Shown here piece after piece: positions 17,810 through 30,437 of a DNA stretch of 64,000 nt (positions within the stretch are counted from its first letter, which is position 1; each line of letters opens with the position of its first letter). Under the pieces are notes generated by a model that saw nothing but the letters and a program-made list of their open reading frames with translations, was not told the origin of the DNA and did not search any database. This stretch comes from Halomarina salina (lineage in GTDB: Archaea > Halobacteriota > Halobacteria > Halobacteriales > Haloarculaceae). A program made the translations under genes and the position numbers. The stretch spans positions 2,480,001-2,544,000 of the forward strand of contig NZ_JALLGW010000001.1 of NCBI RefSeq assembly GCF_023074835.1. The letters are read 5' to 3'.

Positions 17810-18334
17810 GTGCCCGCTCCAGACGACGCCGACCACCGCCACGACCGGACGACGAGACACCCGACGCCCGGGCCGCTCAACTCCCTCCAGCACTGGCGAG
17901 AGGCGAAGTCGGTCCCGCGCGTCGTCTACAACTTCGTCCTCGTCGTCGTCGCGCGCCTCGCACCGTTCCTCTCGTGGAAGGCGTGGGCTCTCCGGCGAAT
18001 CGGCGTCAGCGTCGGCGAGGGCGTCTCGTGGGGCCTCGAGGCCACGCCCGACGTGTTCTGGCCGGAACTCATCACGCTGGAGGACCACTGCATCGTGGGG
18101 TACGACTCCGTGTTGCTCTGCCACGAGTTCCTGCAGGACGAGTATCGCACCGGCGAGATCGTGGTCGGCGAACGGGCGATGGTCGGCGCGAAGGCCGTCG
18201 TCCTGCCCGGCGTCCGTATCGGCGCTGGAGCACAGGTCGCGGCCAACTCGCTCGTCGTCGAGGACGTGCCGCCCGGCGCGACGGTGGCTGGCGTCCCCGC
18301 GGAAGTGGTCAAGGAGGGAGACGGCCAGGAGTGA
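17810..18334 (+). CDS. Left-handed beta-helix acyltransferase
   Basis: 174 residues from GTG 17810, preceded by a CTTTTTGTC box about 28 bases away. Hexapeptide repeats are clear in the C-terminal half (VVGERAMVGAKAVVLPGVRIGAGAQVAANSLV with the terminal PPGATVAGVPAEVV). Residues 35-70 are hydrophobic (YNFVLVVVARLAPFLSWKAW) and may associate with membrane. The family acetylates or succinylates sugars or small molecules; the acceptor is not identifiable. Confidence 0.85.
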   Translation: MPAPDDADHRHDRTTRHPTPGPLNSLQHWREAKSVPRVVYNFVLVVVARLAPFLSWKAWALRRIGVSVGEGVSWGLEATPDVFWPELITLEDHCIVGYDSVLLCHEFLQDEYRTGEIVVGERAMVGAKAVVLPGVRIGAGAQVAANSLVVEDVPPGATVAGVPAEVVKEGDGQE

Positions 18335-18362
18335 GCGTCCCGGGACCGTCGAATCGGTTCGC

Positions 18363-19142
18363 TCAGCGGACGCGGATGATGCCCGACCGGAAGACGAGGT
18401 CGTTCGGTACGACGAACTCCTCGCCGTCGTTCTCGACCGTCGTGACGAACACGTCCACCTCGGAGACGATGCCGCGGTGGCCCGCGACCTCCACCTCGTC
18501 GCCGATGCCATACGGCTGACTCAACAGGAGGTAGATGCCCGCCGTGGCTGCGGCGAGGACGTCCTTCAGCGCGAGGCCGCCGAAGACGATGACGGCCAGC
18601 AGGTAACCGCCGAGCAGGACGTACAGTGCACCCGCCGCGAGGCCCAGTTGCGCGAGCGCGATGATGCCCGCGACGTAGTAGATGCTGTACTTGACGAGTT
18701 TCGGGATGAGGTTGACCTCGGTGAACTTGACGTTCTCCAGACGCTCCTGGAGCGTCACCTCCGCCTTGTCACCGAGGACCAGTCCCGCGATGACGATGAG
18801 TATCGCGGCGAACACCGACGGGATGATGCCGGCGAACGCGAACAGCGAGAGGTCCGTCTCGATGGTCCCCGCGACGCTGAGCGCGCTGGCGACCGTCGCG
18901 ATGTAGATGAACAGCGTGACCAGCGTCGCGATGAGTCCGACCGTCGACGTGCCGATGCGCTGTGCGGTGCGCTCGAAGCGCGTCCCCTCGACGGCCCGCG
19001 GGAGGCCGATGGCGACCATGAACCGTCGGGCGTACCGGCCGACCAGGAACCCGAGGATGAGCCCGACGACGAGAATGAGAATCGCACCGACGGAGTTCGA
19101 GACGGCGTCCAGGACGTCCTCGGCGAACCGCTCGACTTGCAT
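18363..19142 (-). CDS. MscS-family small-conductance mechanosensitive channel
   Basis: 259 residues. About five membrane segments occupy residues 15-205. The MscS beta domain follows (QPYGIGDEVEVAGHRGIVSEVDVFVTTVENDGEEFVVPND), and the protein ends directly after it, so the C-terminal alpha/beta cage of classical MscS is missing. The gene lies one base after dacZ, so they form one transcription unit. This fits a role in osmotic adjustment tied to cyclic di-AMP, which in bacteria controls ion transport (inference). Confidence 0.85.
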   Translation of the reverse strand: MQVERFAEDVLDAVSNSVGAILILVVGLILGFLVGRYARRFMVAIGLPRAVEGTRFERTAQRIGTSTVGLIATLVTLFIYIATVASALSVAGTIETDLSLFAFAGIIPSVFAAILIVIAGLVLGDKAEVTLQERLENVKFTEVNLIPKLVKYSIYYVAGIIALAQLGLAAGALYVLLGGYLLAVIVFGGLALKDVLAAATAGIYLLLSQPYGIGDEVEVAGHRGIVSEVDVFVTTVENDGEEFVVPNDLVFRSGIIRVR

Positions 19143-19143
19143 C

Positions 19144-19959
19144 TCAGTAGTCCTCCGGGTCGAGTTCGAGGACGATCTCACCGCCCGCGAACGCCCGGAC
19201 GAGAGCGTCGCTCTCGGAGAGGACGATGGAGATAGCGTTGGTGTCCCGCGAGATGGCCGCGGCCGCCATGTGACGCGTGCCGAGGCCCTTGGGGATGTCG
19301 ACGCCCTCCGCGCCGGGTTCGAGGTAGCGGTACGCCGAGACGATCTTCCCCGAGTCCGAGATGACGAACGCGCCGTCCAGCCGCGAGAACTCCTTCAGCA
19401 TCACGTTGACGATGGGGTCGCCGACGTGGACGTGGGACTTCTCGAACGGGTTGTACGACAGCGAGCGGGACTTGTTCATCACCTTGCCCGCGTCGCCGAC
19501 CACGAACAGCGCACCGACGGGTTTCCCCTTCTGCCCCTTCTTCCCGAGTTCGATGACCACTTCGAGGACGGCGCGGATGACCGACGGATCCGCCCGCGAG
19601 TCGGTGAACAGCGAGTAGACGCCCGACCGGACGAACTCGCTCGTGTTGACCCGCGTCATCGTGTCGATGGTGTCGTCGAACAGCTTCGTCGCGCAGGCGA
19701 CGATGGCCCCCTCGTCGACGTACTCCCGTTCCATCCCGCCTTCGAGACCGAACCGGATGCGGTCCCGGACGTCCTCGAACTCAAGCGGTAACTCGACGTA
19801 CTGGTCCGCGTTCACCGCGTTCTCGGACGAGACGACCACCACCGGTGGAGCATCCTCTGTCGTCGCGAACTCGTCGTAGAGGGAGGCGGTCGGCGAGAAG
19901 AGAAACACCGCATCGACGTCACCGGCGATATCGTCGTATAGGTCGCCCAGCGCTGACAT
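19144..19959 (-). CDS. dacZ: Diadenylate cyclase (archaeal DacZ type)
   Basis: 271 residues. The C-terminal DAC (DisA_N) domain contains the catalytic SRLDGAFVISDSG (Asp-Gly-Ala 195-197) and GLGTRHMAAAAISRDTNA (Arg-His 229-230). It makes cyclic di-AMP from two ATP. The N-terminal ~115 residues are a pyruvate-kinase-like alpha/beta domain typical of archaeal DacZ. It is cytoplasmic and the first gene of an operon with an MscS channel. In Haloferax volcanii dacZ is reported to control c-di-AMP levels and osmotic response. Confidence 0.92.
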   Translation of the reverse strand: MSALGDLYDDIAGDVDAVFLFSPTASLYDEFATTEDAPPVVVVSSENAVNADQYVELPLEFEDVRDRIRFGLEGGMEREYVDEGAIVACATKLFDDTIDTMTRVNTSEFVRSGVYSLFTDSRADPSVIRAVLEVVIELGKKGQKGKPVGALFVVGDAGKVMNKSRSLSYNPFEKSHVHVGDPIVNVMLKEFSRLDGAFVISDSGKIVSAYRYLEPGAEGVDIPKGLGTRHMAAAAISRDTNAISIVLSESDALVRAFAGGEIVLELDPEDY

Positions 19960-20100
19960 GATTGCACCCTCTTCCCATGACCGCAAAAGCCTTTCCGAGT
20001 GTCTGACGCGAGGCGGACAGCGGGACGACGAGGGGGAACAGGAGGCAGACAGCCCCACACGTACTCGAACGGTCACTTCATCTTACTTTGTAAGTCGGGT

Positions 20101-20155
20101 CGTGGGACCGGATTCGAACCTCGCTCGCTCACCGTCGTTCGCTCCCTGCTTCGAA
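20101..20155 (-). repeat. Truncated tRNA-Leu 3' end repeat, copy A
   Basis: The first 20 bases (20101-20120) match exactly the T-arm and acceptor end of the tRNA-Leu at 21503-21587, in the same orientation. The whole 55-base block matches copy B (21404-21458) with four mismatches. D-arm and anticodon arm are missing, so it is not a tRNA gene. It looks like an attachment-site remnant left by integration at tRNA-Leu. Confidence 0.7.
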
Positions 20156-20374
20156 CCCTCTGCGACGCATTCGCTCGTCACGTCCGGTCCTCGCTGAGTG
20201 CGTGGGAGCTGTTCTGGGAGTCGAAACCGCTATACGGGCTGGGGAGGTCCCGGACGAGCGCTCCGGTGATTGTCGAACGACTGGTGGTGGCGGCTCTGCT
20301 GGCGCTGACGGTCTGCAGAGCATTACCCGTGGGTTTCTGGAGCTATTCCCGGAGGCTGTGTTCCTACGGGAACC

Positions 20375-20405
20375 CTGGGCGAGGACCTTCCGGTCTCTCG
20401 CCCAG
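20375..20405. other. Strong hairpin in gene-free DNA
   Basis: CTGGGCGAG-GACC then a TTCC loop, then GGTC-T-CTCGCCCAG: 13 base pairs with one bulged T. A weaker outer pairing (GGGTT with AACCC) lies just to its left. It could be part of a non-coding RNA or a transposon-derived end. Confidence 0.55.
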
Positions 20406-20701
20406 CCCATCCTCGGAGATTCGGCCCAGTCGTTCGGGCATCCACCGCCGAACGTGTCGAAGTCGATGTTTCGTGGCGCCCGCCGACCAGGTAATCCCGG
20501 CTCTCACTCGGTGAACGAGTGGCCGAAGCCTTCACGAGGGAGTCCAGTGCGCAACGACACACCAGTTTCCAGGCAGCCCCGCCCGCGGCCCCTCCCTGGG
20601 TGATGAGGAACTCTCGGCGAGGACTGTTCTCGAAGCAGTCAGGGGTCCGACTGTCGCAAGCCGTGCTGGTTTCAGCGCCTGAACACGCAACTCTAGTGTT
20701 C

Positions 20702-21064
20702 ATGACTGATTGGCGCTCCGTCGGCATCGGGTTCGGTTTTCAGGTAGTGTTCGGAGTACTCGCCTTCGCTCTTCCAGGCATCGGGACCGTGTTCGCTGGG
20801 TTTCTCGCCGGCCTTATCTCGGCCTACCTCACGAATAACGGTGCCAGCGTCGGTGCGTGGCACTCGTTCCTCTCCGGCGCTCTGGGTGGGATTATCGTTG
20901 CGACGCTCGCAGGTGTCGCTATCACCCTCCTCGGGTTCGCGCTCGGTTCATCGGGACTCGGAGCACTGTTCGGCGGGGGTGTCGTGACCATCGGGGTCCT
21001 GATCGCGCTCCTGACCGCGATTCCGAGTGCGGTCGGTGGCGCAATCGGTGGGTACGTCAACTGA
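20702..21064 (+). CDS. DUF5518-like membrane protein
   Basis: 120 residues with about four Gly/Ala-rich hydrophobic segments. ATG 20702 begins the membrane protein proper (MTDWRSVGIGFGFQVVFG); the upstream open frame does not look coding. Codon use is less GC-biased than neighbours (many codons ending in T or A), which suits acquired DNA. DUF5518 proteins are haloarchaeal and of unknown function. It sits between two tRNA-derived repeats next to tRNA-Leu, so it is probably cargo of a small island. Confidence 0.7.
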   Translation: MTDWRSVGIGFGFQVVFGVLAFALPGIGTVFAGFLAGLISAYLTNNGASVGAWHSFLSGALGGIIVATLAGVAITLLGFALGSSGLGALFGGGVVTIGVLIALLTAIPSAVGGAIGGYVN

Positions 21065-21502
21065 GAACGCTCATGTGGGCGCGCGGTTCCGGGCGCTGGA
21101 CGGCGGCCGTTGGCCCCGGGAGCTAGCTCGGGCCTGCGCCCTCATCACGCGCGTCGGACCCTCGTACGTCTCCCGATACTCGCGTTTCTTCAACTAGCGT
21201 TCCAATGCGGGCGACGTACGGTCCGTGAGACTCACCGACCAGTTGTCTCGGTTCTTGCTCGACCCCGCTGGGGGAATCCGTCGCACATCGTCGTCCGTTT
21301 CGACCCATGACATATTGACGCGGTCGACCTCGGTCGGACGTAGCCCGTTCCATACGTACTCCGTCAGCGAGAAAACCGCACGACGAGACGGAGTCGAGGA
21401 GTGCGTGGGACCGGCTTCGAACCTCGGTCGCTCACTTTCGTTCGCTCCCTGCTTCGAATCCGCCCGGACGATTTTCGCGCTCGCCGTCGCTCGCGCCGAA
21501 GA
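21065..21502. other. Gene-free stretch between the DUF5518-like gene and tRNA-Leu
   Basis: No supported ORF. It holds repeat copy B and otherwise unfeatured sequence of mixed composition. The frame reading through here on the plus strand into MOSC antisense is an artefact of the tRNA-derived repeats. Confidence 0.55.
21404..21458 (-). repeat. Truncated tRNA-Leu 3' end repeat, copy B
   Basis: Bases 21403-21423 match the 3' end of the intact tRNA-Leu with a single mismatch. The following ~35 bases are shared with copy A, including the string TCGTTCGCTCCCTGCTTCGAA less one end base. It lies 80 bases beyond the 3' end of the tRNA in the same orientation, as expected for tandem attachment-site relics. 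Confidence 0.7.
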
Positions 21503-21587
21503 TGCGTGGGACCGGATTCGAACCGGCGGACTCCTGAGAGACAGCGTCCTAAGCGCTGCGCCGTTGGCCTGGCTTGGCTACCCACGC
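21503..21587 (-). tRNA. tRNA-Leu (anticodon UAG)
   Basis: 85 bases, no intron. The acceptor stem is GCGUGGG/CCCACGC with discriminator A. The anticodon arm is CAGCG-CUUAGGA-CGCUG, with UAG at loop positions 34-36, decoding CUA (Leu). A long variable arm (CUC-UCAG-GAG), as expected for leucine tRNA, and the T-arm GCCGG-UUCGAAU-CCGGU are present. CCA is not encoded. Its 3' end is duplicated in truncated form at 21403 and 20101. Confidence 0.95.
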
Positions 21588-21637: not shown

Positions 21638-22150
21638 TCAGCCCTGCCGATCCCGAATCGACTCCGCGAGCCCCTCCCCGTCGAACACGGGACCGAGCAC
21701 CTCTACCTCGTCACCTACTGCGACCGACCCGTCCTCGACGACGTCGGCACAGATACCGCCGCGCCCCTCCGTCAACGCCCGCGTGACGCCCTCCTCGTCG
21801 GCGACCGCCTCCACGTGGGCACAGGGTGGCCGTGGCCGCGTCCCCTCGAACGTCGCGTCACCGACGCGGAACCGCTGGCCGAGCAGGTCGTGGACGTCGA
21901 CGTCCCGTACCACGACGTTCCGCCGGTGCCGTCCGTCGGTGAGGTCGATGTCGTACTCCTCGAGGATGTGGTCGAGCGCTTCGCTCTCGACGAACGTTAT
22001 CTGGCAGACGTCGTAGGGAGAGTAGTAGCCCGTCCCGAGGCAGTACCGGTCGCCCTCGATGCCACACCCCGCGAGACAGCGAATCGACTGGTGGGACTCC
22101 ATCGGTGCCGAGTCCTCCGGCGCGGTCCAGAGTCGTTCGACCCGTGACAT
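21638..22150 (-). CDS. MOSC domain protein
   Basis: 170 residues, a single MOSC (molybdenum cofactor sulfurase C-terminal) domain. Visible signatures are GCGIEGDRYCLGTGYYS, RRNVVVRDVDVHDLLGQRFRVGD and the conserved-Cys region TRPRPPCAHVE. MOSC proteins bind or transfer sulfur to Mo cofactor or related ligands; the stand-alone form is functionally open. Start ATG 22150 is the first Met after a stop-free but non-coding-looking extension. moaC, another Mo-cofactor gene, is in the window at 44803. Confidence 0.85.
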   Translation of the reverse strand: MSRVERLWTAPEDSAPMESHQSIRCLAGCGIEGDRYCLGTGYYSPYDVCQITFVESEALDHILEEYDIDLTDGRHRRNVVVRDVDVHDLLGQRFRVGDATFEGTRPRPPCAHVEAVADEEGVTRALTEGRGGICADVVEDGSVAVGDEVEVLGPVFDGEGLAESIRDRQG

Positions 22151-22232: not shown

Positions 22233-22541
22233 ATGTACAGCGCCCGAGACCACGTCGAGAACGAACAGTGGCTGGCGGACATCGACGCCGCCGGTGACCG
22301 ACTCGACCTCGGGAGTGCGGCCCGGTCGCGCGCGGTCGACCTGTTCCTCTCGACTGTCCCCGAGGAGGAGCGCTCGAAGAGCGCGTCACTGGCCGCCGCG
22401 CTCTACGTCGGTGCGCTCATCGAGGGCGACCGGCGGTCACAGGGCGACGTCGCCGAGGCCGTCGGCGTCTCGCGACTCTCCGTCCAGCAGAAGTGGAAGG
22501 ACCTCATCGAGGAAGCCGGACTGCGAAAACCGAGCTGGTGA
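22233..22541 (+). CDS. Stand-alone TFB-like cyclin-fold protein
   Basis: 102 residues. Residues 30-98 resemble one cyclin repeat of transcription factor B: SRAVDLFLSTVPEEERSKSASLAAALYVGALIEG, then QGDVAEAVGVSRLSVQQKWKDL, the helix-turn-helix end of the repeat. There is no zinc ribbon or first repeat, so it cannot act as full TFB. It may be a DNA-binding regulator or TFB antagonist (inference). The complete TFB is at 49771-50742. Confidence 0.75.
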   Translation: MYSARDHVENEQWLADIDAAGDRLDLGSAARSRAVDLFLSTVPEEERSKSASLAAALYVGALIEGDRRSQGDVAEAVGVSRLSVQQKWKDLIEEAGLRKPSW

Positions 22542-30244: not shown

Positions 30245-30245
30245 C

Positions 30246-30437
30246 GAGGACGACCGAAGGGAGTCCTCGGAGAATCCGAGCGGTGACCGCAGGGAACCGC
30301 GAGGAGTAGAGCGATTCGGAGCGAGCGGGAGCGAGCAAGAATCTCTGTTTTTCGAACGGAGAGCGAAGCGACCCGTGGGGTGTAGCGAGACGCGAGCGTC
30401 TCGAAGAATTCGAGCGGCGAACGGAGTGAGCCGCGAG
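30246..30437 (+). repeat. Tandem-hairpin 3' element (units 1 and 2)
   Basis: Unit 1 (30246-30304) stacks three inverted repeats: GAGGAC/GTCCTC, CTCGG-agaat-CCGAG and GCGGT/ACCGC. Unit 2 (30386-30437) has the same plan: CGAGACGC/GCGTCTCG, CTCGAA-gaa-TTCGAG, GCGGC/GCCGC. Both end in CCGCGAGG. A T-run (ctgttttt near 30347) lies between them. Unit 1 starts one base after the FKBP stop codon, like the copy at 48794. Confidence 0.7.

Follow-up and report, generated by a model that had tools for sequence, protein, structure and literature searches.

Cognate tRNA-tail units behind haloarchaeal tRNA genes, probable RtT-like structured RNAs, and their occurrence at tRNA-Leu(UAG) of Halomarina salina

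Next to the tRNA-Leu(UAG) gene in the 64,000-nucleotide stretch of Halomarina salina DNA analysed here (the window), two truncated copies of the tRNA 3' end had been read in an earlier note as the footprint of integration and excision. We consider it likely that each is instead the end of a tRNA-tail unit, and that these units, a family found in haloarchaea, are RtT-like structured RNAs that are cotranscribed with the tRNA and that spread and are turned over by recombination. Indeed, the same copies, together with the same hairpins, were found behind 20 of the 43 tRNA genes of this genome and also behind tRNAs of many haloarchaeal families, whereas the tRNA copy left by a genuine element at tRNA-Arg(GCG) is longer (~45 nt) and has no such hairpins. 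The blocks turned out to be a common dispersed repeat unconnected to integration, which is the very case that the earlier note had named as fatal to its reading.

Anatomy and folding of the units

The description of the blocks themselves held up. Starting at 20101 and 21404 and lying 1303 nt apart, they share 87% identity across 67 nt, with 4 mismatches among the first 55, and both start with the T-loop-to-acceptor end of tRNA-Leu(UAG) in the orientation of the tRNA. The locus is laid out as follows (window coordinates):

21503..21587, minus strand: intact tRNA-Leu(UAG), host gene of the units (ARAGORN; Rfam RF00005, 49 bits)
21402..21502, minus strand: unit B, tRNA-proximal, consisting of hairpin Y, hairpin X and the tRNA tail copy
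21474..21500, minus strand: hairpin Y of unit B (folding; tandem-GA detector)
21477-21496, minus strand: tandem-GA core of hairpin Y of unit B, GCGC-GA-GC-GACG-GC-GA-GCGC
21453..21464, minus strand: antisense T-arm of hairpin X, unit B, GGCGGATTCGAA (folding)
21422..21452, minus strand: ladder core of hairpin X, unit B, GCAGGGAGCGAACGAAAGTGAGCGACCGAGG (folding), common to units of other tRNAs
21402..21421, minus strand: tail copy of the tRNA-Leu 3' end, unit B, 1 mismatch
20150..20161, minus strand: antisense T-arm of hairpin X, unit A, AGAGGGTTCGAA
20119..20149, minus strand: ladder core of hairpin X, unit A
20099..20118, minus strand: tail copy of the tRNA-Leu 3' end, unit A, 2 mismatches at the extreme end
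19144..19959, minus strand: dacZ (diadenylate cyclase), conserved neighbour (Pfam DACZ_N and DAC; synteny)
21638..22147, minus strand: MOSC-domain protein, conserved neighbour (Pfam)

The adjacency of the MOSC gene and tRNA-Leu(UAG) is kept in several haloarchaeal genera. The window also encodes, at 22236-22541 on the plus strand, a 101-aa small protein with a match to a single TFIIB-type repeat (PF00382).

A unit lies immediately behind a tRNA gene, on the tRNA strand, and runs from a T-rich start through hairpin Y and hairpin X to the tail, over a length of 99 to 225 nt (median about 120, mostly ~100-135). The tail repeats the final ~20 nt of the tRNA itself, and all copies lie downstream of the tRNA and on its strand. 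Hairpin Y ends in a tandem-GA motif, which is composed of a stem, GA, two pairs, a 3-5-nt loop, two pairs, GA and a stem. In hairpin X, the outer stem pairs an antisense T-arm (e.g., GAGGGATTCGAA) with the sense T-arm of the tail (TTCGAATCCCTC), and the interior is either a ladder, CAGG-GA-GC-GA-AC-nnn-GT-GA-GC-GA-CCG, or a longer GC-rich hairpin.

A strict tandem-GA detector found the motif on the sense strand of 34 of 54 units and on the antisense strand of only 1 (shuffle mean, 1.5), and the density of tandem-GA hairpins was 5.7 per kb in units versus 0.08 in the flanks. Compared with shuffled sequences, the minimum free energy had a z-score of -2.97 on the sense strand, -1.87 on the antisense strand and -1.37 in the flanks of unit-less tRNAs. 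A structure on the antisense strand was therefore rejected, its z-score being weaker and tandem GA being nearly absent there; the sense-only tandem GA and the stronger sense folding argue that the structure forms on the tRNA strand, the simplest case being an RNA read through from the tRNA gene. Covariation links the antisense arm to the T-loop base (G-C 18, A-T 16, G-T 4, A-C 4) and to the T-stem, for which the observed value was reached by 1 of 5000 permutations. Among orthologous units, 13 double-sided pair changes were counted, against a permuted mean of 4.0 and a maximum of 10. Since broken pairs outnumbered the compensatory ones (51 versus 13) and the antisense-strand fold gave similar counts, conservation is clear in overall shape and modest in pair counts.

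Distribution and turnover of cognate tails

All 43 tRNA genes of this genome were searched with their own last 20 nt, allowing up to 3 mismatches, over 6 kb on each side. The tRNA strand downstream of the genes yielded 28 matches, of which many were exact and 26 lay no farther than 1 kb away, far more than chance would give; the three control sides, namely downstream on the opposite strand and upstream on either strand, yielded none. The copies within 1 kb are the ones that mark 20 of the 43 tRNA genes; in the congener G007, copies were found at 22 of 42. Tails of other tRNAs (with six or more differences) gave no match in 1528 tests in this genome and 1458 in G007, and for all 54 copies the nearest tRNA was the own tRNA. 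Where the tail differs between the two species, the first copy follows the own species' tRNA in 7 of 7 cases. In genome G045, two Gly tRNAs that differ only around the T-loop are each accompanied by an exact copy of their own form.

Copies were present at 59 of 137 haloarchaeal tRNAs from 14 genomes (those of this genome and G007 plus 52 tRNAs from 12 other haloarchaeal genomes) and at 0 of 46 tRNAs from 26 non-haloarchaeal genomes of the same phylum (Fisher, p about 7e-10). Within the own genome, block A matched six places, two at tRNA-Leu, two at tRNA-Arg(UCG) and the others at tRNA-Val(UAC) and tRNA-Met; counting relatives from many haloarchaeal families, 30 of 59 genomes had matches. ARAGORN placed a tRNA near most of the fetched block A loci, usually within 200 nt, and the distal part of each repeat matched that adjacent tRNA and not tRNA-Leu. 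In IMG/VR, the exact X motif matched once, by chance, in a protein gene of an unrelated phage-like contig, and viral carriers were dropped as a candidate. A simple age gradient, with more tail mismatches at greater distance, was also dropped, the increase in distal copies being a nonsignificant trend (p=0.12). About half of the tRNAs have no recognisable unit, and neighbouring species differ; no single unit is therefore likely to be essential.

A comparison of this genome with G007 showed entire units that are present in one species and missing from the other, the junctions at the tRNA 3' end being clean. For Ser(gga), Leu(caa), Glu(ttc), Arg(ccg) and Asp, what follows the unit in one species can be aligned with what follows the tRNA in the other, offset by the length of the unit, and Leu(gag) has the same pattern in the opposite direction. 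In this comparison of two congeners, the clean junctions could reflect either an insertion beside the tRNA or a deletion between the direct repeats. The X cores are near-identical between unrelated tRNAs while the arms differ, as in Val(gac) and Arg(cct), whose cores agree at 94% over 49 nt; such exchange of cores may be bounded by the universal TTCGAA of the T-loop. A different change was seen at tRNA-Arg(UCG) (L074/L139), where the tail of the fourth unit is not cognate and forms a perfect inverted repeat of the unit's own antisense arm (GGTACCTTTGGATTCGAATC ... GATTCGAATCCAAAGGTACC), the pattern expected from hairpin-templated correction.

Some protein genes, too, are followed by sense-strand clusters of tandem-GA hairpins, between which a short piece of the gene end (GAGGAGTAG) is repeated; this suggests a broader occurrence of such hairpins as 3'-end elements in these genomes. 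In the window, four tandem-GA hairpins (30245-30433, plus strand) stand directly behind a plus-strand gene ending ...GACGAGGAGTAG, and 55 nt into the 3' region CGAGGAGTAG appears again. Locus L215 (about 18116-18376) has clusters of this kind with copies of GAGGAGTAG, and shared hairpin sequence occurs in L215 (2845-2892) and L220 (7063-7270).

Integrative elements and competing explanations

The proposal of a decayed island was largely borne out for the 1.2 kb between the window's two units, which is a decayed integrative element with cargo, separate from the units:

20208..21401, no strand: 1.2-kb integrative-element remnant between unit B and unit A (flanking 17-bp direct repeat; integrase fragment inside)
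21197..21367, minus strand: integrase pseudogene fragment, 57 aa and then a stop (62% identity, E=3e-21, to the intact integrase of congener G002)
20702..21064, plus strand: DUF5518 membrane protein (PF17647), cargo of the remnant (family match)
21394..21410, no strand: right copy of the 17-bp direct repeat, overlapping tail B
20191..20207, no strand: left copy of the 17-bp direct repeat, including a truncated third tail, TCCCACGCA (about 20198-20207)

The membrane protein that had been noticed between the blocks is the sole ORF there with a family match. The statement that no integrase is present was not fully accurate, as it missed the stop-interrupted fragment. Pfam did not detect this fragment on its own; in G002, the intact integrase next to tRNA-Leu(UAG) is a Pfam Phage_integrase (E=1.3e-18). 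The two direct repeats are identical at 15 of 17 positions and include the tRNA's last nine bases. Comparison of the locus with relatives, as had been suggested, revealed an integration hotspot, since the occupancy of the tRNA-dacZ gap varies: in G007 the gap is about 640 bp and has no unit, in G038 only two tail copies lie between the tRNA and dacZ, and in G002 it holds a 4-kb insert with the intact integrase. The integrase remnant, the direct repeats at the tRNA and the variable occupancy in relatives all identify 20208-21401 as a decayed integrative element. Because unit B sits between the tRNA and the remnant, either unit B arrived later or the element used tail B. In G002, the integrative element at tRNA-Leu(UAG) (L067, G002:C4:20900-26000) has a 52-nt tRNA fragment as its distal boundary.

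What a genuine element leaves behind could be seen at tRNA-Arg(GCG), where a 14-kb, integrase-bearing element (L231, G000:C1:429306-449305) has the ~45-nt tRNA copy at its distal end, and neither an antisense arm, a tandem-GA hairpin, Y nor X was found beside this copy. Beyond the element lies a normal unit, orthologous to the one directly behind the same tRNA in G007; the element was therefore inserted between the tRNA and a pre-existing unit. A second island, 5.6 kb with an integrase-family match at tRNA-Ala(CGC) (L220, G000:C1 about 166500-172138), has a distal tRNA tail copy with 1 mismatch and no hairpin X.

It is very improbable, in our judgement, that integrase elements left the blocks at the tRNA 3' end as attL-type scars, with the hairpins as remains of element ends. 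tRNA 3' ends are indeed the usual integration sites in archaea (PMC8371274), and the hotspot with its integrase remnant in the window and its intact element in G002 agrees with that reading. Archaeal tRNA-targeting elements, which use tyrosine recombinases, resemble the units in that they use the tRNA 3' end and leave direct repeats there, and they also occupy tRNA-Leu(UAG), decayed in the window and intact in G002; unlike the units, however, they carry an integrase and kilobase cargo and, where seen in this genome, leave a tRNA copy that is longer and lacks both hairpins. The real Arg(GCG) element also sits on the tRNA side of a unit shared with G007, and the repeats of the units do not resemble its repeat. 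Moreover, the units are mostly ~100 nt, free of cargo and present at 20 tRNAs, no integrase lies within those short units of 99-225 nt, the hairpin motif is common to different tRNAs and families, and the viral contig scan yielded only the chance match in a gene. The att-scar reading of the blocks was rejected on the genome-wide tail survey and the Arg(GCG) element taken together. An attC- or integron-like reading (ssDNA hairpins with proximal insertion) was set aside as well, given the tRNA-specific tails and the lack of a linked integron integrase.

If the units were instead selfish, REP- or MITE-like hairpins, that is, non-autonomous single-stranded or circular DNA moved in trans by a transposase or recombinase with a preference for gene 3' ends, one would expect near-identical X cores on locus-specific arms, species-specific presence or absence with clean junctions, and related tandem-GA clusters behind protein genes, all of which were found. 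Nevertheless, we regard this explanation as rather unlikely: cognate tails are not expected from simple transposition between tRNAs, we know of no transposase associated with the haloarchaeal units, and gene conversion bounded by the T-loop TTCGAA could account for the exchange of cores. Movement as DNA and a life as RNA are compatible and do not exclude each other. Less likely still is a neutral by-product of replication, in which template switching or slippage at the T-loop palindrome would give rise to tail duplications and inverted arms and hairpin-templated correction would keep them complementary. Such a process would fit the construction of the arms on TTCGAA, the conversion of the distal Arg(tcg) tail to a perfect inverted repeat of its own arm and the direct repeats, which support precise loss, but it leaves unexplained the sense-only tandem-GA hairpins, the two-hairpin order at many tRNAs and the restriction to haloarchaea.

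Relation to E. coli RtT, proposed mechanism and significance

The closest likeness to the haloarchaeal units is found in the E. coli RtT or tyrT repeats (RF00391; rttR), which are tandem units 3' of a tRNA, on its strand, each ending in the tRNA 3' end. Rfam RtT matches the E. coli tyrT locus four times, and its consensus structure pairs an antisense arm (GGGGAAGGAU) with the sense tail (AUCCUUCCCC) around an inner tandem-GA hairpin (CTCGAGCGCCAGCGAGAG); the repeats include CTC-GA-GC-GCCA-GC-GA-GAG. In MG1655, tandem units behind tyrV each end in the tRNA-Tyr 3' end, and three units have one tandem-GA hairpin each on the sense strand and none on the antisense strand. The haloarchaeal units share the position behind the tRNA, the cognate 3'-end tail and the antisense arm with an inner tandem-GA hairpin. 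In contrast, RtT is confined to one tRNA locus with ~178-bp units annotated with a small ORF (tpr), whereas the haloarchaeal units occur at about half of a genome's tRNA loci, are shorter for the most part and have the extra hairpin Y directly behind the tRNA. The RtT covariance model gave no match at E<=1 in four unit-bearing loci of the own genome and none in the window stretch, and in Rfam scans only tRNA was above threshold in that stretch and no unit family appeared in the four loci. Having the same layout but no match to the RtT model, the haloarchaeal units are called RtT-like here and are not filed as members of RtT.

REP/BIME and other dispersed bacterial hairpin repeats are short, extragenic and found near gene 3' ends. 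The haloarchaeal units are likewise short, dispersed, extragenic, hairpin-forming and close to gene 3' ends, but they differ in carrying a cognate copy of the upstream tRNA's end and in their fixed place behind the tRNA.

As RtT-like RNAs, the units would be transcribed together with the upstream tRNA and would adopt their folds in the transcript. By analogy with E. coli RtT, tRNA 3' processing would then cut at both the end of the tRNA and the tail copy and so free an RNA of ~100 nt, which may have a function of its own. New units would be added next to the tRNA, and the resulting direct repeats of ~20 nt would permit loss and homogenisation by recombination. The short T-stretches behind the tRNAs and the two RNA 3' ends behind a tRNA-Pro of Haloferax volcanii (PMC7237163) are compatible with read-through, as a fit rather than a proof.

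More tentatively, and at somewhat less than even confidence, the units may represent a cross-domain class of tRNA-appended structured RNAs, genome-wide in haloarchaea, which tRNA 3' processing would release to serve as small RNAs or as tRNA-processing mimics and which would spread by core exchange between tRNAs, with a wider form marking some protein-gene 3' ends. Until now, such a class was known from one E. coli locus only. tRNA-like elements have reportedly been described in Haloarcula in an earlier paper, and the priority of the description of the units is uncertain. In the open-licence literature we did not find a description of such units; only the prophage-type partial tRNAs of Haloquadratum were found (PMC3119063).

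Partial tRNA copies near tRNA genes are routinely taken as integration scars. Since many of those in haloarchaea belong to a regular system of units, island annotation that is based on such repeats will be misled. RtT of E. coli, long an isolated oddity, can now be compared with a system that has many units in each genome, and Haloferax, being genetically tractable, is a host in which RNA production from the units, effects on tRNA processing and movement may be tested.
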